Shown here piece by piece: positions 13,438-33,310 of a stretch of DNA of 64,000 nucleotides. This DNA comes from an uncultured Nitrospira sp. (GTDB lineage Bacteria; Nitrospirota; Nitrospiria; Nitrospirales; Nitrospiraceae). Positions within the stretch are counted from its first letter, which is position 1. Each line of letters opens with the position of its first letter. Location of the stretch: positions 1 through 64,000 of the forward strand of contig CABVSR010000008.1 in NCBI GenBank assembly GCA_902500995.1, written 5' to 3'. The position numbers and the translations under genes are program-made. The notes under the pieces were generated by a model. That model was not told where the DNA came from and ran no database searches. It saw nothing but the letters and a program-made list of their open reading frames with translations.

Positions 13438-14265
13438 TTATCCTCGCAGCAACGCTAACGCTTGCTGTGGCAGCGAATTGGCTTGTGCCAAGATCGCGAT
13501 ACCGGATTGGGTAAGGATCTGGTTCTTCGTGAACACAGATGTCTCCTGGGCAATGTCCGCATCGCGGATCCGCGATTCGGCCGCGGTGAAGTTCTCGGCC
13601 GTGACCGTCAGATTCTGGATCGCGACTTCGAACCGGCTCTGAATCGACCCGTAATTCGCGCGGGCGGTTGCCACTGCGCTGATTGCGCTGTCGATCTTGG
13701 CCAGCATCGACTGCGCAGCTGTCGCCGTCGAGACGCTGGCGCCGGTCAATCCAACCGCCGCTACGTCGAGGTCATCCAAAGCCACATTCAATGAATTGCC
13801 CGATCCACTCTTGAAGCCGATGAAGACCTCAAACGTGTTGGTGCTTCCGCTGAGAAGCGGCTGACCGTTATATTCCGTCGTGACCGAAATCCGATCGATT
13901 TCCGACCGCAACGCAATAAATTCCTGGTCCAGGTAGGAACGCTCGGTGGTTCCCAACGTTCCGCTGGCCGACTGGGTCGCCAACTCACGCATACGAGACA
14001 ACAGGCTGCCGATGGTGGCCGCCGCGCCGTCCGCGACCTGCGTCAAGCTGATACCGTCGCCGGCATTTCGATTGGCCTGATTGATACTACGAATCTGAGC
14101 ACGCAACGTTTCAGACACGCCCAAACCGGCCGCGTCATCGGCCGCGCGGGTGATGCGCAAACCGGACGACAACCGTTCAACTGAACGGCCCAATTGAGCC
14201 TGGTTGACCGCAAGGTTCCGCTGGGCTGCCAGTGACGCAACGTTGGTATTGACGACTAATGCCAT
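13438..14265 (-). CDS. fliC: Flagellin
   Basis: Filament subunit of 275 residues. The N-terminal D0/D1 (MALVVNTNVASLAAQRNL, then ERLSSGLRI and DDAAGLGVSE) and the C-terminal D1/D0 (ESRIRDADIAQE to NSLPQQALALLRG) are well conserved. Only about 90 residues separate them, so the outer D2/D3 domains are almost absent. The short centre is rich in Ser, Thr and Ala (for example GASVSTATAAQ), possible O-glycosylation ground given the sugar island next door. It is the only flagellin in the window. ATG 14265 follows AGGAGG. A predicted FliA promoter and a structured leader lie upstream. Confidence 0.98.
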   Translation of the reverse strand: MALVVNTNVASLAAQRNLAVNQAQLGRSVERLSSGLRITRAADDAAGLGVSETLRAQIRSINQANRNAGDGISLTQVADGAAATIGSLLSRMRELATQSASGTLGTTERSYLDQEFIALRSEIDRISVTTEYNGQPLLSGSTNTFEVFIGFKSGSGNSLNVALDDLDVAAVGLTGASVSTATAAQSMLAKIDSAISAVATARANYGSIQSRFEVAIQNLTVTAENFTAAESRIRDADIAQETSVFTKNQILTQSGIAILAQANSLPQQALALLRG

Positions 14266-14396: not shown

Positions 14397-14423
14397 TTAT
14401 CGGTAGGCTTTTGGGAAGACTTA
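14397..14423 (-). promoter_or_regulatory. Predicted sigma-28 (FliA) promoter for flagellin
   Basis: Minus strand: -35 TAAG (14420-14423), exactly 15 nt, -10 ACCGATAA (14397-14404). This is one mismatch in each box from the consensus TAAA-N15-GCCGATAA. Transcription would begin near 14390, giving a leader of about 125 nt. The FliA gene is at 50991-51752. The rest of the 236-bp gap to the next gene shows no other clear signal. Confidence 0.75.
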
Positions 14424-14501: not shown

Positions 14502-15044
14502 TTAAGCAGCCAGACCGGCGTCGCCGAGGCGGGGTAATAATTCGTATTCGAGCAAATCCGCGACACGGATCGCGTCGGCCGTGGTGCGCGCTCCTAACAA
14601 TTCTTGGATCCATGGCACCAACGAGGCGGAGGAGAGTCCCTCGACACCCTGGGTCTGCCCGGCATCCAACATTTCGGTATAGTCGGCCAGGCGTCCGAGC
14701 CACGCATCGATGGTTCCAACCTGAGCGGTCCCGGATCGCAAGGGGGCCAGCAGCACCTGCCCATCGCTCTGCAGTTCAGCGGCAAATCGCTCGATAGCCC
14801 GTTTCGCGTCTTGGATGATGGTGTGTAGTGATTGAGAGATGGCCTGCAGCGCGCCCACATCCCGGACCAGTTGATTGAGAAACGGCGGGGTGAGATCGCG
14901 ATCGCTGATCCGATTCCCTCCGACGGTCAACGAGGTCACGATGCGGTGGCGGGCATGTGCCTTATCGCTCAAGGCCGCCAGTGCGTTCATCATCGACGTG
15001 TCATCCGGTAACTGCAACGACTCACCATCCAGAGTGATGTGCAT
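14502..15044 (-). CDS. Unknown protein between the glycan island and flagellin
   Basis: 180 residues, not recognised. It begins MHITLDGESLQLPDD, has no signal peptide or membrane helix, and is predicted mostly helical and acidic, with a central helix (LQAISQSLHTIIQDAKRAIERF) and a Leu-rich C-terminus (LLEYELLPRLGDAGLAA). ATG 15044 follows AAAGGAG with 7-nt spacing, a strong start; an upstream frame to 15089 lacks one. Its place directly upstream of flagellin and downstream of the glycosyltransferases suggests a flagellar or export-related role, but no function can be assigned. Confidence 0.7.
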   Translation of the reverse strand: MHITLDGESLQLPDDTSMMNALAALSDKAHARHRIVTSLTVGGNRISDRDLTPPFLNQLVRDVGALQAISQSLHTIIQDAKRAIERFAAELQSDGQVLLAPLRSGTAQVGTIDAWLGRLADYTEMLDAGQTQGVEGLSSASLVPWIQELLGARTTADAIRVADLLEYELLPRLGDAGLAA

Positions 15045-15094
15045 GATCAAACTCCTTTGACAAACAGGTGTATCACGTACGTTTTCCATCGCCG

Positions 15095-16771
15095 CTATGC
15101 CGAACGCGCCATGGGAAGAGCCCGGGATCCGCCGCGGCGAACCGTTCCTCGCGCGTCGTGGAATGCGCGGAACCTGGCCGCCACCGCATGTACTCGCTTC
15201 TGCCAGCGCCGGTAGGTGGCAAGCCGGGATTGCGCCAGAGCCGTCAGTTCGCTGCCCTCATCATTGTGCGTATCCCGCACCATGGCCACCGCCAGAGAAG
15301 CGGTCGCCGGGCTTTGCATGCTGAGCGCAACAATCTTTTGCCGTTCCGCCGCTTCCTGTCGCTGCATCTGTTGCAAGGCGGTGACGGGCAACGGGCGTCT
15401 GGTCGTGAGACGGACGAGTTCTTCAGCCTTGGCGATCAGCTGCCTCGCCAGGGGCGTCAGGCGTTCCAGCACCGCCAGCGCATCGGCTCGATCAGGAGAT
15501 GGATCGGGATGAGCAGGAACCTGGCTGGGACGGCCGCTGAACTCTTCGAACCAGAATCGTCGCCAGAAACGCCCGTACCACTCGACCAGAGGGTCTTCCC
15601 GCCCGGCACATAGTTCCGTGCTCCCCAAACCGTCCTCGTCGGCACGAGAGCGATAGATGCGCGCTCCGGTAATCGATTGGGGGAAGGCGGCTCCAGTGAG
15701 CGCGTGCAAACACAAGGCCGCCATCTGATCCGGGACGAGGCGGTCTTTGCAGGCATGATGAAAACAGACCTGATCGAATCCGCAGGGCGCGCATCCGAGA
15801 TCGGGCTGCACCATCCAATGGCCCGGTCCATAGGGCCCGGTCTCCCGGAAATCCACATGGCCGACCGAGAGGTCAACCACCGGCGTGCCGACACCAACTG
15901 CAAGATGCATGGGGCCGGTATCGTTGGTCACAAGCAGCCGGCAGCACGACAGCAGGGCGGCGAGTTGCGGTAACGAGGTCTTCCCCACCGCATCGCAGAG
16001 CGGAGCAGTCCCTCCCGCCTGGCGGAATGAGGTTTGAGCGAGTTGAATGGCTTTGCGTTCTTCGGGGGTGCCGATGAACAGGTACCCGACCGGTGCCTGC
16101 CGGCTGAGGGACGCCAACGTCTGCCCGAACAATTCAGGGCGCCAGGCTTTCATGGGATCGCTGGCACCCACCTGCACCGCGACCCAAGACATCGGTTGTT
16201 TGCCGCACGACGCGAGAAAATCATGCGCCCATTGAGCGGTGTCGGCGGGAATGTTCAGCGAGAGCGGCGCAAACGGTCCCGTGCCACTGCCACCCAACGC
16301 ATAGATATCCACGAGATTGAAATGGTTGAAACGACGTTCATGATGCACATCCGTCAGATAAGCCATCCAAGGATTATGAATGGTCACATCTCCGTCTTTC
16401 GGGGCTGCGATGCCGCGAATTTCTTTCGCGCCGACGTATGAGGTCAGCAGTCCGCTCCGCCGGTTGAAGGTCAGGTTCACGACACGGTCATAACGGGCCT
16501 CGACCAGAGGCTCGGCCCACCGCGTCATCTCCTGATAGAGGGTCACCACATCCTTGGTTTGCGCCCGACTCTCGTCCACCAGACGATGAAAGTCGTATCC
16601 GACAATGTGCCGAAGGTGCGGCAACAGCTTCGCGACCGGGGCGAACCGTTGGTCCACGACCAGGTCGACTTCCGCTCCCGACGATTCGTGCTGGAGGCGC
16701 TGAAGCAGCGTGCCCATTTGCACGAGATCGCCCATTCTGGTGATATTGATCAAAAGGATGCGTGTGCTCAT
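15095..16771 (-). CDS. Glycosyltransferase family 9 (heptosyltransferase-like) with a C-terminal extension
   Basis: 558 residues. The first about 360 residues follow the GT9 GT-B fold: ILLINITRMGDLVQMGTLL at the N-terminus and the donor-site region VTNDTGPMHLAVGVGTP in the C-terminal half. GT9 enzymes transfer heptose-type sugars from nucleotide donors. The remaining about 190 residues are helical and Arg/Gln-rich and are not part of the usual domain. The start overlaps the upstream CgeB-like gene as ATGA. It is the distal gene of the sugar island, so its acceptor could be a flagellar or surface glycan. Confidence 0.85.
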   Translation of the reverse strand: MSTRILLINITRMGDLVQMGTLLQRLQHESSGAEVDLVVDQRFAPVAKLLPHLRHIVGYDFHRLVDESRAQTKDVVTLYQEMTRWAEPLVEARYDRVVNLTFNRRSGLLTSYVGAKEIRGIAAPKDGDVTIHNPWMAYLTDVHHERRFNHFNLVDIYALGGSGTGPFAPLSLNIPADTAQWAHDFLASCGKQPMSWVAVQVGASDPMKAWRPELFGQTLASLSRQAPVGYLFIGTPEERKAIQLAQTSFRQAGGTAPLCDAVGKTSLPQLAALLSCCRLLVTNDTGPMHLAVGVGTPVVDLSVGHVDFRETGPYGPGHWMVQPDLGCAPCGFDQVCFHHACKDRLVPDQMAALCLHALTGAAFPQSITGARIYRSRADEDGLGSTELCAGREDPLVEWYGRFWRRFWFEEFSGRPSQVPAHPDPSPDRADALAVLERLTPLARQLIAKAEELVRLTTRRPLPVTALQQMQRQEAAERQKIVALSMQSPATASLAVAMVRDTHNDEGSELTALAQSRLATYRRWQKRVHAVAARFRAFHDARGTVRRGGSRALPMARSA

Positions 16772-18585
16772 AACAGGTCGCGTGTCTCGCTCCGATATTC
16801 ATCCAGCATCAGCACCATCAATTCTTCACGCTTGAGCGCGGCGGTGGGACCTTTGCTGCGAATCCTGGCCGCCACGTCTTTGAGTTCGATGCGCTGGCCG
16901 TTCGGGCAATCCTTCAGCAGCGCTTCCAGCGGACGATCATCGGCGCAACGCTTCAGTAGGGCCTCCTGCTGGCGCTCCCCTCGCAGCACGGAGCCCACGC
17001 GATCCGGCTGAGACAGCCCGATCTGTCCCAGCAACTCTCGCATCCGATGCACGTAGGTATGCTCGCTCAACACACGCGCGCGGGCGGCATCGGCCATGGC
17101 CTGGCGTGCCGGAGGATCATTCAGCCATCGTTCAATCAATCCCGGAACGTCGCCAAACTCCTTGAACGAGACCATCTCCTGTTCGGTGAAAAACCTGGGC
17201 AACTGTGAGCGATGGTCCACCAGCTGGAAGGCCCCGCAGGCGGCCAATTCAAACGTACGCGGATTCACGAAGTCGGCGTCCGGATCCAAACCGGCGCCAG
17301 TCGTGGAATGCAGGTTCAGATTGATCGCCGTAGCGTTAAACACCTTCATGCAGGTGGCCGTGTCGATCCGGGCTCCGTCCAGTTGCAGCACCGAGCGGAG
17401 ATCGTCCGCGCCGTCCCATTCGTTCCCCCAGAGCTTGAACGACCAGGGCCGGCGGAGCAGAGACGGAAACAGCCGCCGGCGATTGGCATACCCTGCGCCG
17501 ACGAACGACACGTCGGCGCCGTACAGACGGCGGTCGTCTTCCGACAGGGCCAAGGGACGGTGCAGCTCCGGATCGGCGGCCATAGGCAGGTAACTGACCT
17601 GCCGCGCACCCGCCTGCCGGAACGCATCCATGCACGCCCCCTGCTGAAACACGAACCAGAATTCGTATCCCGGCGCGAGTTGCTGCCAATAGGTCAAATG
17701 CCGGTAGTTCTCCACGAACCACATCGCGGTGAGAAATTTCTTTTTTCGCAGATGTTCGAGAACCGGCAAGGTCAGGGGAGCCTGCGCCATCGAGAGCACG
17801 AGGTCGGGAGGCGACTCCGCGAGCGTGGCCAGAGTCCACTGGCTCAGCACATCGGCCATCCGGCCCTGCACCAACTGCCGGTTGCGCCCGTCCTGGAGCC
17901 GTCCCATCACCTCATAACTCGCCGCATGCACGCTGTGATCAATCCACTGGACCTTGTGGCCCAGTGTTTCCAAGGCTCGCTTCACGTATCCGGCGATCGG
18001 AAGCGAACCCCCGTAAATCGGTCCCACCAGCGCAATCGTCAACTGGCCGCCGGCCTGGCGGGAAATCTCTCGCCGCAATCCTTCTTCAAAGGCGCGATGG
18101 AACTCTGCATCCGGCTGCGCGGCCGGCGCGTACGTCAGGCAACGTATCGGGCGGCCTGCCTGGGTCAATCGCCCGGCAATCTCGGATGGCGATCCGGCCA
18201 GCCACAGCACCGATTCACTCCAGGACTCAAGGGCCCGCGCCTCCAGCGCATCGTGAAACTCGTCGAGGCTGGGGATCAGTACGGCCAGAGAGACCTCAGG
18301 CGGTAATGTGTTTCGAAGCGCCTCGACATGGTAGAGCAGACCGATCCCTGCTACGACGACCGTTTCTCCCGGTTGGCACGTTGCTGCATGCGTGGCAGCC
18401 CAGGTTTGAGCTTCGCGGAGGGGATCGTACGCGCTATGAATCCAGCGGCCGGCACGCCGCGCCGATGGCACATGGTTCCGCGCCGGTTCGATCGCCAGCA
18501 CGCCGCCAGCTGCGGACTTGACCGCCGCCGCAAAGTCCCGATCACGTGCCGCCAGGAGGTCGAGATTGTGATGAAGATGATTCAT
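16768..18585 (-). CDS. CgeB-like GT-B glycosyltransferase
   Basis: 605 residues. The middle and C-terminal parts fit the CgeB/DUF3880 glycosyltransferase group: LVGPIYGGSLPIAGYVKRALE, then VGAGYANRRRLFPSLL, and NPRTFELAACGAFQLVDHR near the donor-binding end. The N-terminal about 170 residues (GETVVVAGIGLLYHVEALR) resemble the 6-hydroxymethylpterin-kinase-like domain found in flagellin-modifying proteins of the Maf/DUF115 type, though only in general shape. Start and stop form ATGA overlaps with both neighbours, so translation is probably coupled. Donor and acceptor are unknown. Confidence 0.82.
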   Translation of the reverse strand: MNHLHHNLDLLAARDRDFAAAVKSAAGGVLAIEPARNHVPSARRAGRWIHSAYDPLREAQTWAATHAATCQPGETVVVAGIGLLYHVEALRNTLPPEVSLAVLIPSLDEFHDALEARALESWSESVLWLAGSPSEIAGRLTQAGRPIRCLTYAPAAQPDAEFHRAFEEGLRREISRQAGGQLTIALVGPIYGGSLPIAGYVKRALETLGHKVQWIDHSVHAASYEVMGRLQDGRNRQLVQGRMADVLSQWTLATLAESPPDLVLSMAQAPLTLPVLEHLRKKKFLTAMWFVENYRHLTYWQQLAPGYEFWFVFQQGACMDAFRQAGARQVSYLPMAADPELHRPLALSEDDRRLYGADVSFVGAGYANRRRLFPSLLRRPWSFKLWGNEWDGADDLRSVLQLDGARIDTATCMKVFNATAINLNLHSTTGAGLDPDADFVNPRTFELAACGAFQLVDHRSQLPRFFTEQEMVSFKEFGDVPGLIERWLNDPPARQAMADAARARVLSEHTYVHRMRELLGQIGLSQPDRVGSVLRGERQQEALLKRCADDRPLEALLKDCPNGQRIELKDVAARIRSKGPTAALKREELMVLMLDEYRSETRDLL

Positions 18586-19775
18586 GCCGCCATCGATTCA
18601 CAAAGGTCCGGTGCACAAGTTCGCCAGATTCCGGCACGCGAGTGTTCGATCGCCTCGCGGCCGGAGCCGTCGTCAAAAAAGACTCCCCATCGATCCATAC
18701 GGCTCCTCCATAACGTCCAATCCTCCGCGTTCCGATGCCGGCCGTCGCACATCACCTCGATGCTCTCCTTGATCGGCCAGCTGCCGGGCTGTGTATGCGC
18801 CGCATGCTGAAAGACCCAATGACCGTCGCCATAGGGACCGGTTTCGTGGATACGGGCGCGTGAAAAATACCATCCCATCGCCCTGGTCCCGACCAGCGTG
18901 CCCAAATGAAGCGGGCCGGTATCGGCTCCGACGACCCAGTGACAGGTGTGCAGCACGCGCATCAACTGGGACAGGGTCGTGCGCCCCGCCGCGTTCCAGA
19001 TACGACCGTGGAGTAGCGCGGGAAGCGATTCGAGGATTGCCTGCGCCGTCTCGCGCTCCGTGCCGCTTCCGATCAGGACGATGTGCCCGTCATCCGTCTC
19101 GGTCAGGAGTTCACGAATCCATTGGCTCCATACGGCGGGGCCCACACAACGATCCGCCTCCCCTGCACCGATGGCCAAGGCCACCCAGCGCCCCGGGCGC
19201 GCACCGATCTCGGCAAGGTCTCCCGGAAGATCGACGGCCGGCGGCACCAGCAACGGCGCCTCCCCTCGCGGCCGCACGCCGCACATGCCGCACCAGACAT
19301 CCGCGAGGTGCACGCGATTGGCTCCCCGTTCCCTGGCGACCTGCCGGAGATGTTGCGCCCAGGGACGAATCCGCGCCTCGCTGTGCTCCTGATCCTGTGC
19401 GGAGGAGAAACGGCCTGAAAACAGCTGCGTCATCAATTGGCTTCGCACGTGCTGATTCAGCGGATACACCCGTTCATAAGTGGTGTCACCCAGCGACGCG
19501 ACATAGCGCTGCATGGCGTGCAGTGTGGCAGTCGGATTCTCCTGCCACCGCTCGGCCCACGCGCGCCATTGTTCTCCGTCCCAGGGAATCACGCGGCCGA
19601 TCCGCCGATCTCCGGCCAGCACCGCCGTCAAGGGTGCCGCACAGAGCACATCCAAGGTTCGCCCCTGAGCGGTCTCCAACAACGCTTCAATGGCGGGAAG
19701 CGATTGCACCAGATCGCCCAATCGGGCCAGCTGAATCACCAGATCGCGGTGCTCCGCTGAAGGCTCATGCGGCAT
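18582..19775 (-). CDS. Glycosyltransferase family 9 (heptosyltransferase-like)
   Basis: 397 residues from ATG 19775 (MPHEPSAEH). GT9 features: LVIQLARLGDLVQSLPAIEALL at the N-terminus, WVALAIGAGE in the centre, and VVGADTGPLHLGTLVGT in the donor-binding half. It overlaps the end of the giant glycosyltransferase gene by 11 bp and the CgeB-like gene by ATGA. It is the second GT9 in the island; the two differ clearly and are not a recent duplication. In-frame codons continue upstream to 19796 without a better start. Confidence 0.87.
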   Translation of the reverse strand: MPHEPSAEHRDLVIQLARLGDLVQSLPAIEALLETAQGRTLDVLCAAPLTAVLAGDRRIGRVIPWDGEQWRAWAERWQENPTATLHAMQRYVASLGDTTYERVYPLNQHVRSQLMTQLFSGRFSSAQDQEHSEARIRPWAQHLRQVARERGANRVHLADVWCGMCGVRPRGEAPLLVPPAVDLPGDLAEIGARPGRWVALAIGAGEADRCVGPAVWSQWIRELLTETDDGHIVLIGSGTERETAQAILESLPALLHGRIWNAAGRTTLSQLMRVLHTCHWVVGADTGPLHLGTLVGTRAMGWYFSRARIHETGPYGDGHWVFQHAAHTQPGSWPIKESIEVMCDGRHRNAEDWTLWRSRMDRWGVFFDDGSGREAIEHSRAGIWRTCAPDLCESMAA

Positions 19776-22700
19776 GGTTCTGTACCACCTGACCAACCGG
19801 GTCAGCCAGCTGCTTCGCTAACTCGTCCAAGCCCTCGAAGGCCGGTGCCAGGACTTGCAAACAGTCATATTCACGACGGGCCTCTACCCGGCGTCCTGCT
19901 CTCAACAGCACTCCGGCCAAAGCAAATCGCATGGCCATATTGCCGGGGTTGCGCGCGATAAACGAAGACAGCTGCGATGCGAGGGCGTCCCAGCGTTGCA
20001 GCAGCGTGCCGCATTTGAGCAACCAGTGCATGCATTCTTCGTCGTCGGGGTGCTGCGCGCAGAGGGCAGTGATTTCCGACCAGGCGCTCTCCGGTCGGTT
20101 GTTGCCGATCGCGGCCATCACCAGGCCCATCGCCGCTTTTCGCTGATCGGCTCCTCCCCGTTTGGCCTCTTCAAAGGCCCGTTCTGCTTCCGCATAGGCC
20201 AGTCGTTGCATCGCGACGATCCCGCGCAGCAGCCATCCTTCTCCATGGGAAGGCTCTTCGTTGAGCAGCGCCGTCAGATGACGGTCGGCGTCGTCAAAGG
20301 CCCCTGTCTCCAACGCATGCTTGGCTAACCCGATCCTGGCATGGGGATCTTCCTCTATGGCCAATATGCGTTTCCAGAATGGAATGGCTAACTGTGGTTG
20401 CGCGATGCCGGTACAGAGCAACGTCCCCCAGCGCAAAATCCAGGCATCGGCCGGCCACTCGTCGACTCTTCCAAGATAGGCGGCGACGGCCTCAATGTCC
20501 TGGCGCAACCCTGCCCGCTGGAGATCCGCCAGCATGGCGCGCTGAGTCTTGGTGTGCGGATCGGCGATCACTTCCAGCCGGTAACCCAGCATGTCGTTTT
20601 CGATGTAGGTGTGGAGCGCATACCCGTCTTCAAAATGCAGGAGGTCTTCGTCCGCCAACCACCAGCAGGCACCCCAGCGCTCATGCAGCCGGCGGCTATT
20701 ATCCTGCTCATGGGTTTTTCGCCCCGGCGTTTTGCTTTCCAGGTGATACAGGACGCTCTTGGGCTGATAGACGATTTTCCACTGCAGTTTGTTGATCTTC
20801 AGACACAGGTCGACGTCTTCGAATCCATTGCGATACCCTTCATCGAATCCCTCCACCTGCTGAAAGACCTGGCGCCGGACCAGCATGCAGGCGGCCGTGA
20901 CACATTGCAGCTCCCGCCGGCGGGACACGGCGGCCGCTTGGGCATTCCCGCCGCGGTAGATATGGTACGGGAGGAACCACTCTCGCGAGAATGCGACACC
21001 GGCATGTTGGATCGTGCCGTCTTCGAACAGCAGCTTGCTGCCTACGACCGCCACGCCCGCATGGGCGCGGACCTCATCGACGAGGGCCGAGAGCCAGCCT
21101 TTGAGCGGCACCGTGTCATTATTGAGGAAGACGAGAAATTCCCCGCGTGCCGCGCGCGCGCCCTGGTTGCAGGCCTTGGCGAATCCCAAGTTCTGCTCGT
21201 TGCGGATGACCTGCACATCGCCGCCCAGACTTTGCAGGAATGTCTCCACGCCATCCGTCGACCCGTTGTCCACCACGACGACTTCGTAGCTTACTCCGTC
21301 GGTCACCTCGGCCAAGGCCTCGAGGCATTGCTTGGTCAGGGCGGCGTTGTTCCACACGGGGATGATGATCGAACAGTCGTAGGCACACCCGGCAGGGGTT
21401 TTCGTGGTGGTCGAACTCTCGAGTGTCGCAAGATTTTTCTTTTGGGCTTCTAAGACGCCCGACAGACGCTCGGCATGAGGACGGTATTTCCGATAAATGA
21501 GGTCCATCGTCCGTCGATAGGTGTCCTTCAAACTGCTGGTCATCGACGATCCATCGATACGCCAGGTGAACTCGGCCGTGGCCTTCTTGATATGGTGAAA
21601 AGGATAGTGAAGCGCCATGCGGATCCAAAGGTCCCAGTCTTCATGAGCAAAGAGGGATTCATCGAAATATCCCGCTTGGTCGAGGCAACTGCGCTCATGC
21701 ATGACTGTCAGCACAGGCAGGTAATTGCGAATCAACAATTCTCGCGGATCAAAATCACGTGAATGCGGGAGATCTCGTCCGGTGACGACGTAGTGCTCGC
21801 CCTGCCGTCTTTCGTGGATTCTCCAGGCATCTGTATAGGCGATTTTGTGCTCACCGCCCTGCAAGGCCGCGAGCAAGGTCTCCAGGTGATCCGGACAATA
21901 CCGGTCGTCATCGTCGAGGTAGGCGATGTACGTCCCTTTCGCGGCGCGCAGCCCCGTATTGCGTGCTGCGGCCAGACCACGATTCTCTGTATGTTGAATG
22001 GCCACAAGCCGTGCGCCGGCATTGAAGCCGTCGATGACGGAGGTAACATCCTGCCCGCCATCATTGACGACGAGGATCTCGAAGTCTTGGCACGTCTGTG
22101 CAAGCACACTCTGGATTGCTTCCCGAAGACGATCAGGGCGGCTATAGGTCGGCATGATCACGCTGACCAGTGGGCGAACATCGAAGGGAGGCGACGAGAT
22201 CGCTTGTCCCTGTTCATCCGGCGCCTGCCACGCCCACACTTGATAAAAGGGAATGAGTGTTCGCTGGTGACATTCCGCAGAAGTGGGTGCGGGAAGAAAT
22301 CTGAAACTGGGCAACTCAATGCTGACGCGATCGTTGCCAAGACGAACAAACTGATTGCCGATGAAGAGACGCTTGAGGTCGGCTTCCGTCAGCCATTCTT
22401 CAACCGGCTGATTCGGCGGGGCAAGCTTCTTCCACAGATCGAACACTTCCGCCCGCGGCGTGGTCACAATGACATGCCCGCGAGGCTTGACCAAGCGGCG
22501 AATCAGGGCTACGAAGTGTGCCTGATCGGCCTGAGGCACATGCTCGATGACTTCCGAACTGAGCACCACATCAAAAGGGCGGAAATCGGCTTGTTGCAAC
22601 AGCGACTCTGCATGTCCGGCGTGCAAGCGCAAATGAGGATAGAGTGTTCGACCATGTGTCACTACGGCAGCAACTGGTTCGATGCCCGTGCAATCACCAT

Positions 22701-25161
22701 ACGCTGATGCCAGATTCGTCAGCCACCCTCGGCCGCAGCCAAGATCCAAGATCCGGAGACGCGAGGTCTCACCCTTGCGAGCACGCAGTCGGACGATGTG
22801 TTCCAAGTACGCAGCAATCTTGACCCACCGAGCTGTCTCATCATTGTTCGGCTCAGGCCTCGACCATTCGGGATTCTTGATGAACAACTCGGCATAATAC
22901 GCCGCCTCATGAGCGTGCTCATCCATGCCGGCCTTTTCACCATGCATCGGCCTTCCTCCGTGTTCTGTTGGGTGGGAGTTCGAGACGGTCGTCTGTATCC
23001 TGGCGAGTTGCTGAAATTGTTGCAGCATTTCATTCGCAGGATGGAGCGCGCAAACTCGCGCCAGCTTCTCGGCGTGCTCCAGGCTCAGTTGTGATAGACG
23101 ATGTCTCGCAGCACTCTGCACGTCCTTACTGAAGACATCAGGATGATGCATGACCAAGTGAGCCTTCACGAGCTCCTGATTGGCGTGCACCTGAGCGACC
23201 ATGGTGCCGGGACGGTTGCGATACAGAAACAGCGGTTTCGCCAGATGGTGAGAGCGGAACCCCAGCTTGGCTGCGGAGAGCCAAAAGCTCCAATCCTCCG
23301 CACCAAGATACATAGCCGGGGAATATCCGCCGACCGCCTCCCATACCGCGCGCCGGTAGAGAGAACAATAATCGTGCACATTGCTGTGAAGCAGTCGCGC
23401 GATGGTGGAGATATCCTTGCGATGAACATGGGATGTCTCGCCGAAGTTCTGTTCATCCACATAGACCACGGCAATATCCGCTTGATGCTCAAGAATCGAC
23501 ACGGTCTCGTTCAGATAGTCGGGATGCAAGCGATCGTCGGCATCGAGCGGTAGCAGATAGGCCCCTTGAGCGGCTCGGATTCCGGCATTCCTTGCATCCG
23601 CCAATCCCCCGTTCGTTTTACGAATGAGCCTGATGCGATGAGTGGGATAGGTTGCGATCAATTGCGCCGCGACCGCCGCCGTATCGTCAGGACTTCCATC
23701 GTCGACGATGACGCACTCCCAATCGCGATACGACTGGGCGATGACACTTGTCACGGCATCTGCCAGAAAATGTGCCTGCTGATAACAAGGAATGATAATC
23801 GACACCTTGGGAACAATTCGGGACCTCTCACCGCGGGTCTCAGACGTCTGCCACTCTGAGCCGTGCCCTGTGGCCGGCAGAAGCGATGCGTTCGGGCGTC
23901 GCTCCCCGGTCGAGAGAGTCGTCTTCTCAGCCGGCTCGTTCGAAGGGGCGGCATCTAGGCCAGTGCTGAGCAGTAAGTCAGCGAACGTTGGCTCTACTTG
24001 TGTGATCGCTTGATCGCGATCAGAAAATGAAGGGACAACACCCGTGGCTATCCATGAGAGAATCTGCTGGATGCGCTTTTCAGCTGTATGATGGCGGATC
24101 ATTTTTCGAGTCGCGTTCCGGGCCAATTCATACGCGTAACCTTTTTCCCGGAGTACCGATGCGATGTGCTGAGCCAACGTGCTCGGATCATCTTTAGGGA
24201 AGAATACAATGTCTTTCCCCTCTTCGAACAAGGCTCGATTACGAGGACGATCCGTGATATCCCAGGAAATAACCGGTCTGCCCGCCGCCATCGCCTCATA
24301 GACGCGTCCGCCATATCCCTTTTGAAACCCTGGTAAATTGACGATGCACGCCCATTCCCTCAGGCTCTTCATCCATTGGGTAAATTCAGTCAATCGTACG
24401 CGTTGCAGATCGGAGACATATTTCGGTAAGAGCGTCTCTACGGCATCAGGATGGCGCGCTAATAGCTTAGCCGCCGTCAACTGCAACTGATCGAAGAGCT
24501 GCTGGACCGCCGACGGCGAAGAGGCGGGTGAAATCAATATACCTTTCAGGCCGGGATGGTCGAGCCAAGCTTGGCGATGGCCGTATGGTGTACCGTGAAA
24601 CGCCGCCAGGTTACGCACTGGATGCTCGTCCGGAGGATCGATAAATCGTTCCGGAACGAATGCGGGGCACCAGAATGCGGGTATGTTCCTCTTCGCATTG
24701 ATTGGACCTGCATCGACCTCGTCGATCACCACCGCGTGAGTCATATACGCGAGTTGGGATTCGGTTACCGCCGCCCGTTTGGCCGTGATCGGTGAAAAGC
24801 CCTGCTCTTCTTGAGTATATGAGAGTGATTCCATCACGAACCCCACACGAACCGGAGCCAGTGACGCGATCCATTCGAGAAGCTGACGATCATATTCGTA
24901 ATGGACTAACCACACCCAGACAAGGTCGAACTGCTTTCCCCGGCACAATCGCTCAGCGTGCTTCAGCCAGTTGGCGCTCGCGGGTGAAGATGACGGAGGG
25001 ATAGCGGGAATCGTCAGACACTCATACCCATTCGCTTCGAGTCCTTCCCGGATCGCAAAATTCGCCGAATACGTCCACGGTCGGGCGCTGGCCCACGTAG
25101 GGAATTCCAACTGCACAAGAAGCGCTTTCGGCTGGTGTGATCGATTCATGGGATACGCCAT
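19765..25161 (-). CDS. Giant multidomain glycosyltransferase (GT-B, three GT2, methyltransferase, TPR)
   Basis: 1,798 residues from ATG 25161. Domains, approximate residues: GT-B transferase 12-372 (GYGGRVYEAMAAGRPV); GT2-a 452-690 (VSIIIPCYQQ, acidic motif LDADD); class I SAM methyltransferase 800-950 (ILDLGCGRGWL, SSEVIEHV); GT2-b 998-1230 (VSVIMPTYSRPDR, YLDDDD); GT2-c 1262-1510 (CSIIIPVWNN, LNNDT); and TPR-like helices 1600-1790. One polypeptide could thus build and cap a short glycan, with the TPR part binding a protein target. The frame is intact throughout. GTG 25200 and ATG 25149 are alternative starts. Codons in the 5' half look less GC-rich than in the 3' half, suggesting assembly by fusion. 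Confidence 0.9.
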   Translation of the reverse strand: MAYPMNRSHQPKALLVQLEFPTWASARPWTYSANFAIREGLEANGYECLTIPAIPPSSSPASANWLKHAERLCRGKQFDLVWVWLVHYEYDRQLLEWIASLAPVRVGFVMESLSYTQEEQGFSPITAKRAAVTESQLAYMTHAVVIDEVDAGPINAKRNIPAFWCPAFVPERFIDPPDEHPVRNLAAFHGTPYGHRQAWLDHPGLKGILISPASSPSAVQQLFDQLQLTAAKLLARHPDAVETLLPKYVSDLQRVRLTEFTQWMKSLREWACIVNLPGFQKGYGGRVYEAMAAGRPVISWDITDRPRNRALFEEGKDIVFFPKDDPSTLAQHIASVLREKGYAYELARNATRKMIRHHTAEKRIQQILSWIATGVVPSFSDRDQAITQVEPTFADLLLSTGLDAAPSNEPAEKTTLSTGERRPNASLLPATGHGSEWQTSETRGERSRIVPKVSIIIPCYQQAHFLADAVTSVIAQSYRDWECVIVDDGSPDDTAAVAAQLIATYPTHRIRLIRKTNGGLADARNAGIRAAQGAYLLPLDADDRLHPDYLNETVSILEHQADIAVVYVDEQNFGETSHVHRKDISTIARLLHSNVHDYCSLYRRAVWEAVGGYSPAMYLGAEDWSFWLSAAKLGFRSHHLAKPLFLYRNRPGTMVAQVHANQELVKAHLVMHHPDVFSKDVQSAARHRLSQLSLEHAEKLARVCALHPANEMLQQFQQLARIQTTVSNSHPTEHGGRPMHGEKAGMDEHAHEAAYYAELFIKNPEWSRPEPNNDETARWVKIAAYLEHIVRLRARKGETSRLRILDLGCGRGWLTNLASAYGDCTGIEPVAAVVTHGRTLYPHLRLHAGHAESLLQQADFRPFDVVLSSEVIEHVPQADQAHFVALIRRLVKPRGHVIVTTPRAEVFDLWKKLAPPNQPVEEWLTEADLKRLFIGNQFVRLGNDRVSIELPSFRFLPAPTSAECHQRTLIPFYQVWAWQAPDEQGQAISSPPFDVRPLVSVIMPTYSRPDRLREAIQSVLAQTCQDFEILVVNDGGQDVTSVIDGFNAGARLVAIQHTENRGLAAARNTGLRAAKGTYIAYLDDDDRYCPDHLETLLAALQGGEHKIAYTDAWRIHERRQGEHYVVTGRDLPHSRDFDPRELLIRNYLPVLTVMHERSCLDQAGYFDESLFAHEDWDLWIRMALHYPFHHIKKATAEFTWRIDGSSMTSSLKDTYRRTMDLIYRKYRPHAERLSGVLEAQKKNLATLESSTTTKTPAGCAYDCSIIIPVWNNAALTKQCLEALAEVTDGVSYEVVVVDNGSTDGVETFLQSLGGDVQVIRNEQNLGFAKACNQGARAARGEFLVFLNNDTVPLKGWLSALVDEVRAHAGVAVVGSKLLFEDGTIQHAGVAFSREWFLPYHIYRGGNAQAAAVSRRRELQCVTAACMLVRRQVFQQVEGFDEGYRNGFEDVDLCLKINKLQWKIVYQPKSVLYHLESKTPGRKTHEQDNSRRLHERWGACWWLADEDLLHFEDGYALHTYIENDMLGYRLEVIADPHTKTQRAMLADLQRAGLRQDIEAVAAYLGRVDEWPADAWILRWGTLLCTGIAQPQLAIPFWKRILAIEEDPHARIGLAKHALETGAFDDADRHLTALLNEEPSHGEGWLLRGIVAMQRLAYAEAERAFEEAKRGGADQRKAAMGLVMAAIGNNRPESAWSEITALCAQHPDDEECMHWLLKCGTLLQRWDALASQLSSFIARNPGNMAMRFALAGVLLRAGRRVEARREYDCLQVLAPAFEGLDELAKQLADPVGQVVQNHAA

Positions 25162-25174
25162 CTCCTTTCCCCGA

Positions 25175-26800
25175 CTATCCGTTAGGATGCCGCGGATCAC
25201 CGAAATGTCCGGCCGGCGCCGCTGCTGCTCTTGACGCGGAGGAGATGGTCAACAATGACGCCGTGCTGCTTGAGCCGGTCGAATCGACACCGACGGGCTG
25301 CGCGTTCATGGCCGGTTCCTGGATATGACCGAAGGCCCCGTCTCCCAGGCTGATGAGTTGTTCCTGCGATGCGTTCCCGGGACCGGTGAAGAGCTTTTTC
25401 GAAAGGAGGCGCGCCACACGCACCAGCATGAGCGAACCCCCGATGACTCCGTGTTTTTGCAGCATGGGAATCCAGCGCCAGGGGGCGGAATAGATGCTCA
25501 CAAATCCTTCGTTCTGGAGGTCGATCAGGTCATGCGGCGTCAGATCCCCAACCGTGGTGACGGCCGATCCATACCGCCGGTACTCGGAGAAATCCTGCGT
25601 CATCAGGCGGACACCCTTCTCTCCCTTCACCGCGAGTTTATGAAATTCAGTCCCGGGATAAGGCACCGCGATGGCGAAATTTGCTTGTTTGACTTCTCTG
25701 GCTTGCCGTAAGAATTTCAATGTCGCCCGCACCGTCTCCCGGGTCTCCCCCGGCAACCCGATCATCACCGAGTTCAAGGCCTCGACTCCGTACTTGTTAC
25801 AGATGCCATTCGCCTTCACGTAGTGCTCCAGCGGGACCTGTTTCTTCATCGTCTTCCGTATTTCGGGGTCGACGGTTTCAAGTCCGAACGACAGACGGAT
25901 GAGGCCGCTTTTCACCAACCGGGCAATCACCTCTTCTTCGACCAGATTCGCCCTGGTGCTCCCTTCGAATGTAATCTGTAACCCTTCCTGATCGATGAGG
26001 TCGCAGATCTCCAGAATGTGGTCTTTCCAGAGCGTCATCACATCATCGACGATATAAAAGTGCCGGGTGCCAAAGATCTCCACGACCTGCTTCATTTCAT
26101 TGACGACCGATCGCGGAGAGCGCACGCGCATCTCCGTGGTCTTCAACGCCTCCGACGCGCAGAAGATACATTTCCAGGGGCAGCCGCGCATGGTTTGGAT
26201 TGAGGTGAACGGGAGACGTCCGCGCAGCGTGCCGAGTTTGTACCGGGACATCGGCAGCCGGTGCCGCGCTGGAACAGGCAGGGCGTCGAGATCGGTGATG
26301 TCGGCCGGCCGGCCGGTCGAAACGAGGGTACCGTTCTGCCGATACAAGATCCCGGGGACCGCTGAGAGGTCCCTGCCCTGTTCATAGGCATTCAGGAATT
26401 GCGGCCATGATTCCTCCGCCTCTCCGATGAAGGCATAGTCGAAACAGCCCAGCAGCGCCTGCTCCTTCATAATAGTGATATGGGGGCCACCTACGGCGAT
26501 GGGAATCTTCGGCGCGAGTCGCTTGATGCCTTCCGCCACGGTTTTGCTCAAATGAAAAAACGGGCTCGTCGCCGTAAAGCCGATGAGATCCGGCTTCATC
26601 GCAACCGCCCGCTGCACCATGTCATCCAATGGAACCTGCTCGGATTCGCCGTCGAGGATCGTGACCTTGTGACCGTGGCGTTCGGCAATAGCGGCCAGCA
26701 GCGCGAGGTTCAGCGGGGGCCAGGTCGAATTCCGGCGGGCAAAATGGCCGAACAGCCCGTACGCCCCCGTCCATGTGGGATACAGCAACAAGACGTTCAT
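25175..26800 (-). CDS. B12-binding-domain radical SAM protein
   Basis: 541 residues. An N-terminal cobalamin-binding-type domain (MNVLLLYPTWTG, then GFTATSPFF and VGGPHITI) is followed by a radical SAM domain with the cluster motif CPWKCIFC (CxxxCxxC), and a C-terminal Ser/Ala-rich tail of about 50 residues. Members of this broad class methylate unreactive carbons or carry out other radical steps; a sugar C-methylation is possible here but unproven. The cobalamin domain has no obvious DxHxxG, so B12 may bind base-off in another way or not at all. ATG 26800 follows GAGGTGATGT. It lies directly upstream of the giant transferase gene. Confidence 0.87.
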   Translation of the reverse strand: MNVLLLYPTWTGAYGLFGHFARRNSTWPPLNLALLAAIAERHGHKVTILDGESEQVPLDDMVQRAVAMKPDLIGFTATSPFFHLSKTVAEGIKRLAPKIPIAVGGPHITIMKEQALLGCFDYAFIGEAEESWPQFLNAYEQGRDLSAVPGILYRQNGTLVSTGRPADITDLDALPVPARHRLPMSRYKLGTLRGRLPFTSIQTMRGCPWKCIFCASEALKTTEMRVRSPRSVVNEMKQVVEIFGTRHFYIVDDVMTLWKDHILEICDLIDQEGLQITFEGSTRANLVEEEVIARLVKSGLIRLSFGLETVDPEIRKTMKKQVPLEHYVKANGICNKYGVEALNSVMIGLPGETRETVRATLKFLRQAREVKQANFAIAVPYPGTEFHKLAVKGEKGVRLMTQDFSEYRRYGSAVTTVGDLTPHDLIDLQNEGFVSIYSAPWRWIPMLQKHGVIGGSLMLVRVARLLSKKLFTGPGNASQEQLISLGDGAFGHIQEPAMNAQPVGVDSTGSSSTASLLTISSASRAAAAPAGHFGDPRHPNG

Positions 26801-26872
26801 ACATCACCTCATCTGAACGACAGCAGACCCATTCTCACTCAACCCTGCCGGCACATCATGGCGATCCGGCCA

Positions 26873-28711
26873 TTACGGCTGCGACTGATCCGTCCGGCGC
26901 ACCACGTCGGGGTATTCGGGATTCATCCACCCCTCGGCCGGTTCGATCACCATGTTGGCGCGGAACTCTTCGCGGGGCAGGTACGGATACATATCTTCAA
27001 TGGGTGTCTTCCAGCCGAAGATCCTCGGCTCATAGGTGTGGAACTCGTGCATGTCCACATCGCAGACGACCGGGCCGTCGAATGCCAGGACCTCGTCGAT
27101 TTTGGCATCCATCTCCGCATGGTTCGCGATGGCGACGGTCTTGATGCCGTAGGCCTGGACGATCTTGAGAAAATCCGGCGGATGGTAGCCTTTCGGCCCA
27201 CAGGCTTCGGCGCGGCCTTGAAAATTCGTTTCTTGATAGGCCTTGGTGATGCCGTAGATGTGATTGTTCAAAATGAACGTTTTGACTTTCACGCCATAGT
27301 TCACGAAGGTCTGCAGTTCCTGGGGATTCATGTTGAAGCCGCCGTCGCCGATGGTGCAGACCACCTGCCGCGCAGAATCGGCAAACCAGGCGCCCATCGC
27401 GCCGGCGAAGGAGAACCCCATGGGAGAATTGCCGTTGTTGGTGAGATTACGCTGGCCGTACTTCGTTTCGAAGGCATGGTTGCTGACGACGATGTTCCCG
27501 CCGCAGTCGCCCACGAGGATATCCGTCGCGCCCATTTTCTCGGATAAGCGCCGCATGAACGCATAGGGATGCACGCGCTCGCGTTGCGCAAAAAACTCGG
27601 GACGCACCGGATCGTACCGCCGCTTCCATTCCATGACCCTGGCCGTCCAGGCTGAGAAATCCGGCAAGGGTTTGCTGCGGCGATCGAGCGCCATCAACAG
27701 GCGTTGTGTAAAAACCTTGGCGTCGCAGAGGATGTTCACGTCAAAGGGCACCTGCTGGAACTTCCGCTGCACCATGGCCGGATCGATCTCAACGAGGTAT
27801 TTTCTGGCCTGCCGAGCGAAACTCTGCACGTTGCCGCCGGTGATACGGCCCGAGATGCGGCTGCCGATGGACAAGAGCAGATCGCTGTTCTGAATACCGA
27901 AGTTGCGGCCAGCGCCCCCGTAGGTCCCTACCCGCCCGCCATAGTTTTCATAGTCGGAGCTGATCACATCCAGCGCATTCCAGGTCGGAAAACAGGGGAT
28001 GTTCAATCTGCGTCCCAGGGCGCGCACCTCGTCCTGGGCATCAGCCAGGCGCACGCCTCCTCCCACCAGAATCACCGGGCGTTCCGCCTGTTGGAGGTCG
28101 CTGATCAAACGGGCAATCTGCTGGTCTACGACCGTGAGGTCGAAGCTCACGGCCGCAGGCGGGTCAAATCCCATCAATTGCTTGGCATCCACCATGGCCT
28201 TTTGCACGTTCAGCGGAATATCCAGCAACACCGGTCCTGGCCGACCCTCCTGGCACATCCAGAGGGCTTTTTCGAGTTCAAAACGCACGTCATCGGGATT
28301 CGCGATCATCTTGGCGTATTTCGTCACCGGCGCCGCCATCGCCACGATATCCGTCTCCTGGAATCCGATCTGGCGAATCGATGGATCGGGGCGTAAGAAG
28401 CGCGAATTGATCTGCCCGGTGAGAAAGATGCAAGGAATCGAGTCGTAGAAACAGTTCCCCATCGAGGTCAGCAAATTCATCCCGCCCGGCCCGCTGGTCG
28501 CGATCGCCACACCGGGGATGCCCTTGACCTTGGCATATCCTTCAGCGGCGAATCCGCCGGCCTGCTCATGCATGACCGCGACATATTCGGTAGACGCGGT
28601 CCTGGTAAAGGCATCAATCAAGTCACCGTTGGCGGCGCCGTACACGACGAACATCTTGTCGATACCCCGGTCGGCCAAGGTGTTGATGATGTAGTCCGCA
28701 ACCTTGATCAT
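26873..28711 (-). CDS. Thiamine-diphosphate enzyme of the acetolactate synthase family
   Basis: 612 residues. The catalytic Glu49 lies in HEQAGG; the N-terminal pyrimidine domain continues with IATSGPGGMNLLTSMGN. The central domain follows. The C-terminal ThDP domain has GDGGFNMNPQE, with NN about 27 residues later (about 455-482), the cofactor signature. The family decarboxylates 2-keto acids and can add the two-carbon unit to an acceptor. In this sugar island a YerE-like reaction (pyruvate-derived branch added to a keto sugar) is more plausible than amino-acid synthesis, since no small regulatory subunit or ilvC is adjacent. ATG 28711 follows AAAGGAGC. Confidence 0.88.
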   Translation of the reverse strand: MIKVADYIINTLADRGIDKMFVVYGAANGDLIDAFTRTASTEYVAVMHEQAGGFAAEGYAKVKGIPGVAIATSGPGGMNLLTSMGNCFYDSIPCIFLTGQINSRFLRPDPSIRQIGFQETDIVAMAAPVTKYAKMIANPDDVRFELEKALWMCQEGRPGPVLLDIPLNVQKAMVDAKQLMGFDPPAAVSFDLTVVDQQIARLISDLQQAERPVILVGGGVRLADAQDEVRALGRRLNIPCFPTWNALDVISSDYENYGGRVGTYGGAGRNFGIQNSDLLLSIGSRISGRITGGNVQSFARQARKYLVEIDPAMVQRKFQQVPFDVNILCDAKVFTQRLLMALDRRSKPLPDFSAWTARVMEWKRRYDPVRPEFFAQRERVHPYAFMRRLSEKMGATDILVGDCGGNIVVSNHAFETKYGQRNLTNNGNSPMGFSFAGAMGAWFADSARQVVCTIGDGGFNMNPQELQTFVNYGVKVKTFILNNHIYGITKAYQETNFQGRAEACGPKGYHPPDFLKIVQAYGIKTVAIANHAEMDAKIDEVLAFDGPVVCDVDMHEFHTYEPRIFGWKTPIEDMYPYLPREEFRANMVIEPAEGWMNPEYPDVVRRTDQSQP

Positions 28712-28736
28712 GGATGCTCCTTTCCCTGCGTGCGTG

Positions 28737-30245
28737 CTAGGCCGCTCGATCGGCCGCCCGATCGTGATGGCGGCGGCGCACTTGATGCCGGCACATCTCC
28801 GCAACATGAGCGACGACGCGCGGGCCGAACGTACGTTGCAACAGGCTCACATACTCTGAGTGACCGAAGTATTCGAGGAAGGCGCGATCGCGAAAATCCA
28901 GGACCTGCGTGGCGGTCAGGCTGTCGGTCGGCAGAGGGAGACAGTCGTAGGCATGTTGCGAATAGCCGATCCATCCCGGGCCGCCTGGATCGTCCGGCAA
29001 CGCCCATTGCTTCTGTTTGGCCAGGCTGTACAACGCGGAGCCGGGATAGGCCATGGCACAGTAGAAGTTGGCCCATTCGGTATTGAGAGTACGGGCCAGA
29101 TCCAAAGTCGCGCGCATGCTCTCCATCGTGTCGTCCGGGAGGCCAAAAATATAGTTGGCGGCCACATGAATCCCGTGGGCGCGGATGCGCGCCACCGTGG
29201 CGACGATCTCGCGCTCACCGAACCGGCCCTTTTCGACGCCGTCGCGCACATGCTGGCTGCCTGATTCGATGCCGAGCCCCAGCCACCTAAATCCGGCGCG
29301 CGCCAGTTTCTCCAGGACTTCATCCGGCACCGTATCCACGCGGGCATAGGCCCAGATGTTCAAGCGATAGCCCCGTTCGATGATCCGGTCGCATATGCCG
29401 ATCACATGCCGACGGTTCAAGACGAACATCTCGTCCGGAATCTTGATGTTCGACACACCGTAGTCGCGCACCAGTCGGTCGATCTGGCCGATGACATTGT
29501 CGGGGCTCCAGACGCGCAACATCGGCGTGCCAAACGGCGCGTTGATGCAGCAAAAGGAGCAGATAAACGGGCATCCCAGGCTGGTCTGCAACGAGGCGTA
29601 GGGAGTTCTCGCCTCCGGGTTTTCGAAACAATGCCAATTGTGCGCGCGATACCGGCTCATATCGAGCAGATCCCAGGCTTGGCCAGGCAGGTCCCGATCG
29701 AGATTCGTCAACAGCGGCGCCGGCGCATTGCCGACCGGATTGCCATCCTCCATGTGCCACAACCCCGGCACCTCGCGCAGCGAATGTTGCGGGGCTCGCA
29801 GGGCGACCAGCAGGCCGTGAATGGTGGCCGGCCCCTCTCCCTGACAGACATAGGTATAGGGCTCCTCCAGCAGCGTGCGTTTCGGCAAGGCGGAGGAATG
29901 AGTGCCCATCACGAGCGTCGGGATGTCGGCGATGGTATTGAGAATCTCGCAGACCTTCCGGCCGGCGGGCATGCATTGCGTGGAGGCAGATGGTTGTTGC
30001 CCGTAAATGACAAAGACGGCCAGCCGCGGCGCGATGGCGGCGATCTGCTCTGCCGTCTCTTGATGAGTCAGACCCTGAGCCTCCGCGTCTAGGATCGCCA
30101 CAGAGCAACTCTGTTGCCGGAGATAGGTGGCAATCAATCCGGACCATACCGGCGGCTCAATGGCGGCGAAGTCGCGGCTCAGTTCCTGGTAGACCTGGAC
30201 GCGGCTGGGAGGCGTCACGAGTAAGACGTCAAGCGGCTTGGACAC
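28737..30245 (-). CDS. Second B12-binding-domain radical SAM protein
   Basis: 502 residues from GTG 30245 (SKPLDVLLVTPPSRVQVY), which follows GGGAGGGTGCC; the upstream frame lacks a ribosome site. The N-terminal Rossmann-like domain carries LVMGTHSSALP; the radical SAM motif is CPFICSFCC; a C-terminal helical part is rich in His and Arg. It overlaps the aminotransferase gene by 17 bp. It shares domain order with the radical SAM protein at 25175-26800 but is clearly divergent, so the two probably act on different substrates. Confidence 0.87.
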   Translation of the reverse strand: MSKPLDVLLVTPPSRVQVYQELSRDFAAIEPPVWSGLIATYLRQQSCSVAILDAEAQGLTHQETAEQIAAIAPRLAVFVIYGQQPSASTQCMPAGRKVCEILNTIADIPTLVMGTHSSALPKRTLLEEPYTYVCQGEGPATIHGLLVALRAPQHSLREVPGLWHMEDGNPVGNAPAPLLTNLDRDLPGQAWDLLDMSRYRAHNWHCFENPEARTPYASLQTSLGCPFICSFCCINAPFGTPMLRVWSPDNVIGQIDRLVRDYGVSNIKIPDEMFVLNRRHVIGICDRIIERGYRLNIWAYARVDTVPDEVLEKLARAGFRWLGLGIESGSQHVRDGVEKGRFGEREIVATVARIRAHGIHVAANYIFGLPDDTMESMRATLDLARTLNTEWANFYCAMAYPGSALYSLAKQKQWALPDDPGGPGWIGYSQHAYDCLPLPTDSLTATQVLDFRDRAFLEYFGHSEYVSLLQRTFGPRVVAHVAEMCRHQVRRRHHDRAADRAA

Positions 30246-31449
30246 GGCACCCTCCCAGTTTCTGCGCAAAGGCGATCGTGCGCGACACCCCTTCCAGGAC
30301 ATCTTCTTCGTGTCCGCATAGGGCCAGTCTGACATGTGTGGCGTAGGTGTCGCCGAAGCAGCGTCCTGGAGTGACCGCCGTCTGTGCTTCCTCCAGCAGC
30401 CGCCGGCAAAACGTCATCTCGTCGAGGCCGGTCTCCGTAATATCCACAAAGAGATAAAAGCCGGCTTCCGGCTTGTGACAGCGCAGGATTCCAGAGCGGG
30501 CGATGCGGTCGTAGCAGGTTCCGATAAGGCGGCGGTTGCGAGCGCACACCTCGTCGGCATAGGCGTCCAGCACGGACAGCCCCGCGAGGCAACCGGCCTG
30601 GGTAAAACCGGGCAGACAGGAGTAGAGCGTGGAATTGGACAGGGCCAGTTTGGCGATGACAGCCTCATGTGCCAGGGCATATCCGGTGCGGAATCCCGGA
30701 ACAGACAACACTTTGGAAAAGGACGACATCACCACTACATGTCCGGCCTGCGGGGCGGCAAGACTCACGCAAGTGCGGTCGAAGGCCAGATCGGCATAGG
30801 TTTCATCGCTGAGAAGCCAGATCCCTTCTTGTGCGCAACGTGCCACAAGTTCGTGAAGGATCTCCGCCTCATAGACGGCGCCGGTGGGATTGTTCGCATT
30901 GTTGAGGATGATCGCGCGTGGTTTGGTCGACATCGCCGCCTCGATCGCCGGCCGTGACAGGTGAAAGCCGTCGCGCGCCGGAAGCGGGACGGGAACGACC
31001 TCCACATCGAGGTGCGCGGCTGCCGCCCAATAGGAAGGGAAGGCCGGCGTGAAGAGTACGACCCGGTCCCCGGGATTGCAGGTGATATCTAAAAACTGGT
31101 GAATGAGCAGATTGGCCGGGCTGATGACCACCTGTGAGGCGGTGAAATGGTGGCCGGTACGAGAGGCGTACCGATCAGCCAACGCCGCGCGCAGTTCCTG
31201 GAGGCCGGCCATCGGGGCATAGCCGACCTGCCCGGCCTGGAGTTCCCGGATGGTCGCTTCAAGCATCGAGGCCGGAGGGGCCATACGCGGATTCCCGAGT
31301 TCAAGGTGATAGATACGGTGGCCCTGGCGCTCCAGCGCTTGCGCGCGATCCATCACGCGAAACATTTCCTGCCCGATCAGACGTTCGCCTCGAGAAGAAA
31401 AGCACGGCCGGCCCGAGCTCTGCGGCGACGGATTTCGCTGCTGCGTCAT
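30229..31449 (-). CDS. PLP aminotransferase, class I/II fold
   Basis: 406 residues of the aspartate aminotransferase fold type I. Visible: LELGNPRMAPP near the N-terminus, NNANNPTGAVY, the cofactor-contacting DETYADLAF, and the Schiff-base lysine in SSFSKVLSVPGFR. The fold is that of amino-acid rather than sugar aminotransferases, so it may supply an amino acid or keto acid to the pathway, for example to pair with the ThDP enzyme. The start overlaps the nucleotidyltransferase stop as ATGA. Confidence 0.88.
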   Translation of the reverse strand: MTQQRNPSPQSSGRPCFSSRGERLIGQEMFRVMDRAQALERQGHRIYHLELGNPRMAPPASMLEATIRELQAGQVGYAPMAGLQELRAALADRYASRTGHHFTASQVVISPANLLIHQFLDITCNPGDRVVLFTPAFPSYWAAAAHLDVEVVPVPLPARDGFHLSRPAIEAAMSTKPRAIILNNANNPTGAVYEAEILHELVARCAQEGIWLLSDETYADLAFDRTCVSLAAPQAGHVVVMSSFSKVLSVPGFRTGYALAHEAVIAKLALSNSTLYSCLPGFTQAGCLAGLSVLDAYADEVCARNRRLIGTCYDRIARSGILRCHKPEAGFYLFVDITETGLDEMTFCRRLLEEAQTAVTPGRCFGDTYATHVRLALCGHEEDVLEGVSRTIAFAQKLGGCRVQAA

Positions 31450-33280: not shown

Positions 33281-33310
33281 CGTCGCCTCCCCTCTCCGTC
33301 CATACCGGCA

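Follow-up and report, generated by a model that had tools for sequence, protein, structure and literature searches.

The question raised by this locus is what a very large glycosyltransferase protein encoded close to flagellin acts on, and how its domains divide the work. The window, the whole stretch of DNA that was analysed (64,000 nucleotides from an uncultured Nitrospira sp.), contains an unbroken minus-strand frame from the first GTG at 25200 to the stop at 19765, listed as an ORF of 1,811 aa. The giant gene, as it is called here, likely starts at ATG 25149 (19765..25149, 1,794 aa) or at ATG 25161, with GTG 25200 as a further alternative; inspection of the sequence revealed AAAGGAG just 5' of the putative start. 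A preliminary description of this DNA had claimed a single enzyme of about 1,800 residues in one frame, which was borne out, on the minus strand and at about 1,794 aa. Full-length relatives at 84–86% identity were found, all in Nitrospira and with Ca. Nitrospira defluvii among them, and the source genome itself is, judged from its sequence, a Nitrospira near Ca. N. defluvii. Because these orthologues have the same length, a chance ORF or frameshift artefact was ruled out; plus-strand shadow ORFs over the region were not accepted as genes. The protein was left without a family name, since among the 25 NCBIfam families listed only one GT2 domain model passed the cut-off. In one relative (G455, L177:11-8590) the giant consists of two overlapping frames of 1,497 and 867 aa, either because the gene is naturally split or because the assembly contains a frameshift.

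From the N- to the C-terminus, Pfam gave the order GT-B, GT2a, SAM methyltransferase, GT2b, GT2c and TPR tail (all features below are on the minus strand). The GT-B domain (residues 7–381, 24007..25131) is matched weakly by PF13524/PF13692, which represent its C-terminal half; the AF2 model (pLDDT 84.8) has the two Rossmann domains of the GT-B fold and was linked by Foldseek to GT4/GT-B enzymes (best 5.7e-10). PF00535 matches three separate stretches (2.4e-95), each with the DD/ND, DxD-type and ED motifs of GT2 enzymes. These are GT2a (residues 447–650, 23200..23811; DD483-484, DxDD536-539, ED618-619), present in 8 of the 101 copies read, GT2b (residues 991–1222, 21484..22179; ND1029-1030, DDDD1079-1082, ED1170-1171) and GT2c (residues 1257–1484, 20698..21381; DN1294-1295, NND1343-1345, ED1444-1445). 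The AF2 model of GT2c (17 close sequences) was poor, with segment residues 124–288 largely below a pLDDT of 50. The methyltransferase (residues 790–965, 22255..22782) is of the class I SAM type, with a PF13489 match of 5.9e-16 and GxGxG804-808. Among relatives possessing the respective domain, the GT2 motifs, the GxGxG and E285 of the GT-B domain are conserved in at least 97%. The tail (residues about 1540–1785, 19795..20532) matches TPR_19 (2.2e-9) and in its model is an uninterrupted run of 13 helices, largely with pLDDT > 90, whose tandem pairs form a TPR superhelix resembling designed TPRs, the TPR of OGT and SPINDLY. OGT and SPINDLY are both protein O-glycosyltransferases; the likeness to OGT is confined to the TPRs, with no GT41 match in the giant by Pfam. 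The composition proposed earlier, one GT-B, three GT2, a SAM methyltransferase and a TPR-like tail, was confirmed by Pfam, AF2 and Foldseek, and the catalytic motifs are intact in each domain.

Read 5' to 3', the minus-strand run holds sugar-biosynthesis genes, a B12/radical-SAM gene, the giant, three glycosyltransferase genes, a 195-aa gene, flagellin, FliD and chemotaxis genes. The sugar-biosynthesis genes (26873..35504) encode a TPP enzyme, a second B12/radical SAM protein, a class I/II aminotransferase, a nucleotidyltransferase, a GHMP kinase, an epimerase and a DegT aminotransferase, and the B12-binding radical SAM protein adjoining the giant lies at 25175..26800 (PF04055, PF02310). The start of the first downstream gene, for a GT9-type glycosyltransferase (18582..19796, PF01075), overlaps the giant stop; its ORF runs from TTG 19796, an in-frame ATG near 19775 being the likelier start. 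It is followed by a DUF3880 + GT-B (CgeB-like) glycosyltransferase (16768..18585) and a second GT9-type glycosyltransferase (15095..16771), both identified by Pfam. The conserved 195-aa protein (14502..15089) has no Pfam match; the relatives read also have it immediately ahead of the short flagellin. FliC, a short flagellin of 275 aa (13438..14265, PF00669/PF00700), is the proposed acceptor; it is served by its own putative sigma-28-like promoter, found by eye (TAAGTCTT-N11-ACCGATAA, 14397..14423), and FliD is close by. The island had earlier been placed behind flagellin, which is incorrect: the giant lies upstream (5') on the shared strand, with the three glycosyltransferase genes and the 195-aa gene in between. 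The donor sugar was not assigned from the biosynthesis genes, as the nucleotidyltransferase and the kinase resemble HddC/HddA far below the NCBIfam cut-off. The TPP enzyme among these flagellar sugar genes (26873-28807) is acetolactate-synthase-like and may make a branched or acyl-modified sugar in the manner of YerE.

The distribution of the giant was surveyed in 175 genomes of the family, which are related to one another, with counts that are neither independent nor corrected for kinship. Short flagellin (about 280 aa; open frame mostly 275–320 aa) was found in 107 of them, and the GT2c-TPR half of the giant in all 107, four times as fragments or pieces on broken contigs. Where giant and flagellin share a contig, they are on the same strand in 97 cases out of 97, the giant being about 5.2–6.9 kb upstream. 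The 13 genomes with a long flagellin (626–787 aa open frame) all lack GT2c-TPR, and G017, of the same genus and with no flagellin, is without the giant. The neighbouring DUF3880/GT-B gene accompanies the giant from genome to genome and is absent from all long-flagellin genomes. Eight giant copies had no full flagellin match. For four of these (G003, G031, G133, G182) the contig ends nearby, and in three (G116, G132, G142) the giant–flagellin block is split over contigs, G132 showing a partial flagellin match 3 kb from a neighbouring glycosyltransferase. In the last, G164 (70% complete), the second GT9 gene is cut and flagellin is absent from the next 13 kb. Conservation of the giant in relatives without flagella was therefore not observed, as seven of the eight copies lie at contig ends or splits and the region is cut away in the other, an outcome that speaks for flagellin as the target.

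The long-flagellin genomes carry a different enzyme. A strong match to PF01973 (Maf; E < 1e-34) was found in 13 out of 13, and in G165, whereas in the family survey no giant-bearing or short-flagellin genome had one; Pfam gave no such match in the giant or in the source genome. Maf, a nonulosonic acid transferase by its known activity, is well established as a glycosyltransferase of flagellin; the giant thus turns up in genomes that lack a recognised flagellin modifier. In the four long-flagellin genomes scanned, Maf has a TPR tail and lies immediately 5' of flagellin or with one gene in between, and in two of the four a methyltransferase stands in front (MT-Maf-TPR). At L182, L183, L184, L185 and L186 (G166, G071, G157, G194 and G185) a flagellin of 626–655 aa has a gene of 888–1,193 aa upstream, which in the four scanned encodes the Maf-TPR or MT-Maf-TPR protein. 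Long-flagellin genomes also gave second, weaker flagellin-domain matches, probably FlgL. Both states, giant with short flagellin and Maf with long flagellin, occur within two genera, g6 and g30, and more than one switch is therefore probable.

Flagellin as the target has good genetic support: it co-occurs with the giant at a fixed spacing and on a fixed strand, and the giant and Maf exclude each other. This upholds one part of the earlier interpretation, an assembly line for a methylated oligosaccharide on a TPR-held protein, namely that the protein is flagellin. On the genetic side, linkage to flagellin and co-inheritance with it accord with cytoplasmic flagellin O-glycosylation; strict linkage of this kind speaks of co-inheritance, not of a reaction. 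In 82 out of 82 aligned short flagellins, Ser or Thr is found at positions 101, 107, 139, 144, 153, 179 and 180. These are candidate acceptors, although structural constraint could also cause the invariance.

The giant has a constant end and a variable front. In the 101 copies read, which were chosen by their TPR tail, GT2c is joined to the TPRs in every case and the domains before it are modular, with at least 15 architectures ahead of GT2c-TPR. The front of the window protein, GT-B/GT2a/MT/GT2b (MT, methyltransferase), is shared with three others. More frequent fronts are GT-B with an insert of about 760 residues containing a GT4, then MT/GT2b (26 copies), GT-B/MT/GT2b (13 copies) and a second methyltransferase followed by GT-B/MT/GT2b (12 copies); a radical SAM domain is contained in the front of 10 copies. 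On the GT2c-TPR tree the front label changes at least 35 times, also between close, fully supported sisters such as G092 and G097; the number comes from parsimony on a rapidly built tree with 16 automatically parsed module labels, without shuffled-label comparison, and some label differences may reflect seed choice instead of real domain change.

Compared with G025 and G016, the window protein shows 38–59% identity in aligned 100-residue stretches before residue 1200 and about 90% inside GT2c, the change falling at residue about 1260. At the DNA level, similarity to the window is regained at about 21380 in G020 and G016 and lost at about 26870 in G020 and G025, the two relatives compared that retain the TPP gene. 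These borders define an exchangeable cassette between conserved genes (21380..26870), sharp on both sides, comprising the giant's first 1,255 residues and, in some relatives, the B12/radical-SAM gene. One of its borders, as aligned, is in-frame and at a domain boundary of the giant. Upstream sugar genes also differ in a few relatives (G016, G006). The alignments showed that species swap glycosyltransferase and methyltransferase modules onto a constant GT2c-TPR, and each species therefore probably builds a different flagellar glycan.

The reading that we favour, with fair though not strong confidence, is that the giant is a soluble, cytoplasmic, multi-domain enzyme of flagellin O-glycosylation. 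The TPR tail would dock the short flagellin before export, a role as holder that is plausible by analogy with the TPRs of FlmG and Maf-1. GT2c, the sole catalytic domain of the giant that is never lost or replaced in the 101 copies, would act where the glycan is joined to the protein, or close to it, and possibly add the first sugar. GT2b, GT2a and GT-B may then add further sugars and the methyltransferase methylate or cap one of them, with GT2 of C. difficile (PMC5207246) and WsaE (PMC2943079) as models. Donors would be supplied by the upstream sugar-biosynthesis genes, and the three constant downstream glycosyltransferases would either prime the glycan or contribute more sugars to it. The firmest part of this scheme is genetic, flagellin as the target and the exchangeable front, and its weakest part is the order in which the domains act.

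That the downstream genes are constant too counts against GT2c as primer, and a variant with the same target and another priming enzyme is a serious contender, if somewhat short of even chances. Here the giant would only elongate, one of the downstream glycosyltransferases (two GT9, one DUF3880/GT-B) would attach the first sugar, and GT2c-TPR would dock flagellin. The position of these three genes between giant and flagellin in the relatives read and the tracking of the giant by the DUF3880/GT-B gene fit this variant, as does a multi-domain GT2 of C. difficile, which extends a GlcNAc set by a separate GT1 (PMC5207246). Against it, the giant is the only one of these proteins with TPRs in Pfam, and GT2c is joined to the TPR module in every copy read. 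Returning to GT2c as primer, a more specific proposal can be put forward tentatively, at clearly less than even confidence: a modular glycan assembly protein with a constant docking and priming GT2c-TPR, onto which recombination at one fixed domain border would graft interchangeable glycosyltransferase, methyltransferase and radical-SAM modules; the filament glycan would then follow largely from the domain order of a single polypeptide.

A role of the island in making a lipid-linked or LPS-type polysaccharide, with its place beside flagellin owed to genomic habit alone, is improbable. Fusions of glycosyltransferase and methyltransferase such as WsaE do serve lipid-linked glycans (PMC2943079), and the island contains heptosyltransferase-like GT9 genes, but the giant excludes Maf and tracks short flagellin exactly. 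Moreover, those genes of the interval 13.4–36.5 kb that were scanned gave no Pfam match to an oligosaccharyltransferase or other ligase, flippase, ABC transporter or initiating phosphosugar transferase, as a lipid-linked pathway would require, although these could lie elsewhere in the genome. Slightly less probable again is modification of another flagellar protein such as FlgL, FliD or the hook protein, since FliD, though also close to flagellin, and other flagellar genes occur in long-flagellin genomes without the giant as well (a FliD-like gene in G194, the probable FlgL).

Several known systems share single traits with the giant. FlmG of Caulobacter crescentus, whose TPR domain binds flagellin, likewise unites TPRs and a cytoplasmic glycosyltransferase (PMC7591256), but it has 596 aa, one GT-B, an N-terminal TPR and pseudaminic acid as its sugar, with no methyltransferase or extra glycosyltransferases. 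Maf-1 owes its acceptor specificity to its C-terminal TPR (PMC13317340, citing Unay 2024). The Maf proteins of the sister genomes resemble the giant in this C-terminal TPR and in lying upstream of a flagellin, a long one; their transferase domain is unrelated, and they are paired here with a flagellin of 626–787 aa. In C. difficile, GT2 (CDR20291_0242) combines glycosyltransferase and methyltransferase in one protein and adds and methylates two rhamnoses on flagellin, yet requires a separate priming GT1, and the portion of the paper seen reports no TPR or exchangeable front (PMC5207246). Enterobacterial flagellin islands contain GT41 and GT2-30 with methyltransferase domains and are highly diverse between strains; in the portion seen of that study the diversity is one of whole-gene content and no constant GT2-TPR end is reported (PMC4875605). 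WsaE, of the Geobacillus S-layer glycan, is a soluble protein with two glycosyltransferase domains and an O-methyltransferase; unlike the giant, it works on a lipid-linked glycan with ABC transporter and ligase, and none of its three active domains is a TPR (PMC2943079). Aeromonas Fgi-1, a single GT2 of 327 aa, was dropped as a multi-domain precedent. The component domains, a multi-domain glycosyltransferase and methyltransferase acting on flagellin, and a TPR-guided flagellin glycosyltransferase are thus known already. In the open-licence papers searched on multidomain glycosyltransferases of flagellin islands and on Nitrospira flagellin glycosylation, no description of the giant protein was found, nor one of a constant GT2-TPR end with a recombining multi-glycosyltransferase front.

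While flagellin islands in the cited literature vary by gain or loss of whole genes, variation here lies inside one gene, whose product probably gives the filament a sugar coat particular to each species. About a hundred natural variants, in a nitrifier family of global importance, combine an exchangeable front with an end that stays constant and is probably turned towards the acceptor. These natural swaps form a ready set for asking how a chain of glycosyltransferases sets glycan structure, and because flagellin form and glycosylation system switch together, from giant and short flagellin to Maf and long flagellin, the connection between the two can be put to the test.

Related arrangements were seen in other genomes. 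In G442 (L169:1567-13245), a more distant member of the Nitrospirota, a single frame of 3,893 residues has several GT2-like stretches, and the 20 kb that were read gave no match to flagellin. At L085 and L180, radical SAM domains are fused into multi-glycosyltransferase proteins near flagellin, in L180 together with B12-binding, functions that are separate genes in the window. The more distant Nitrospirota G416 and G346 likewise carry large multi-glycosyltransferase proteins near flagellin, and the theme is therefore wider than the family of the window.
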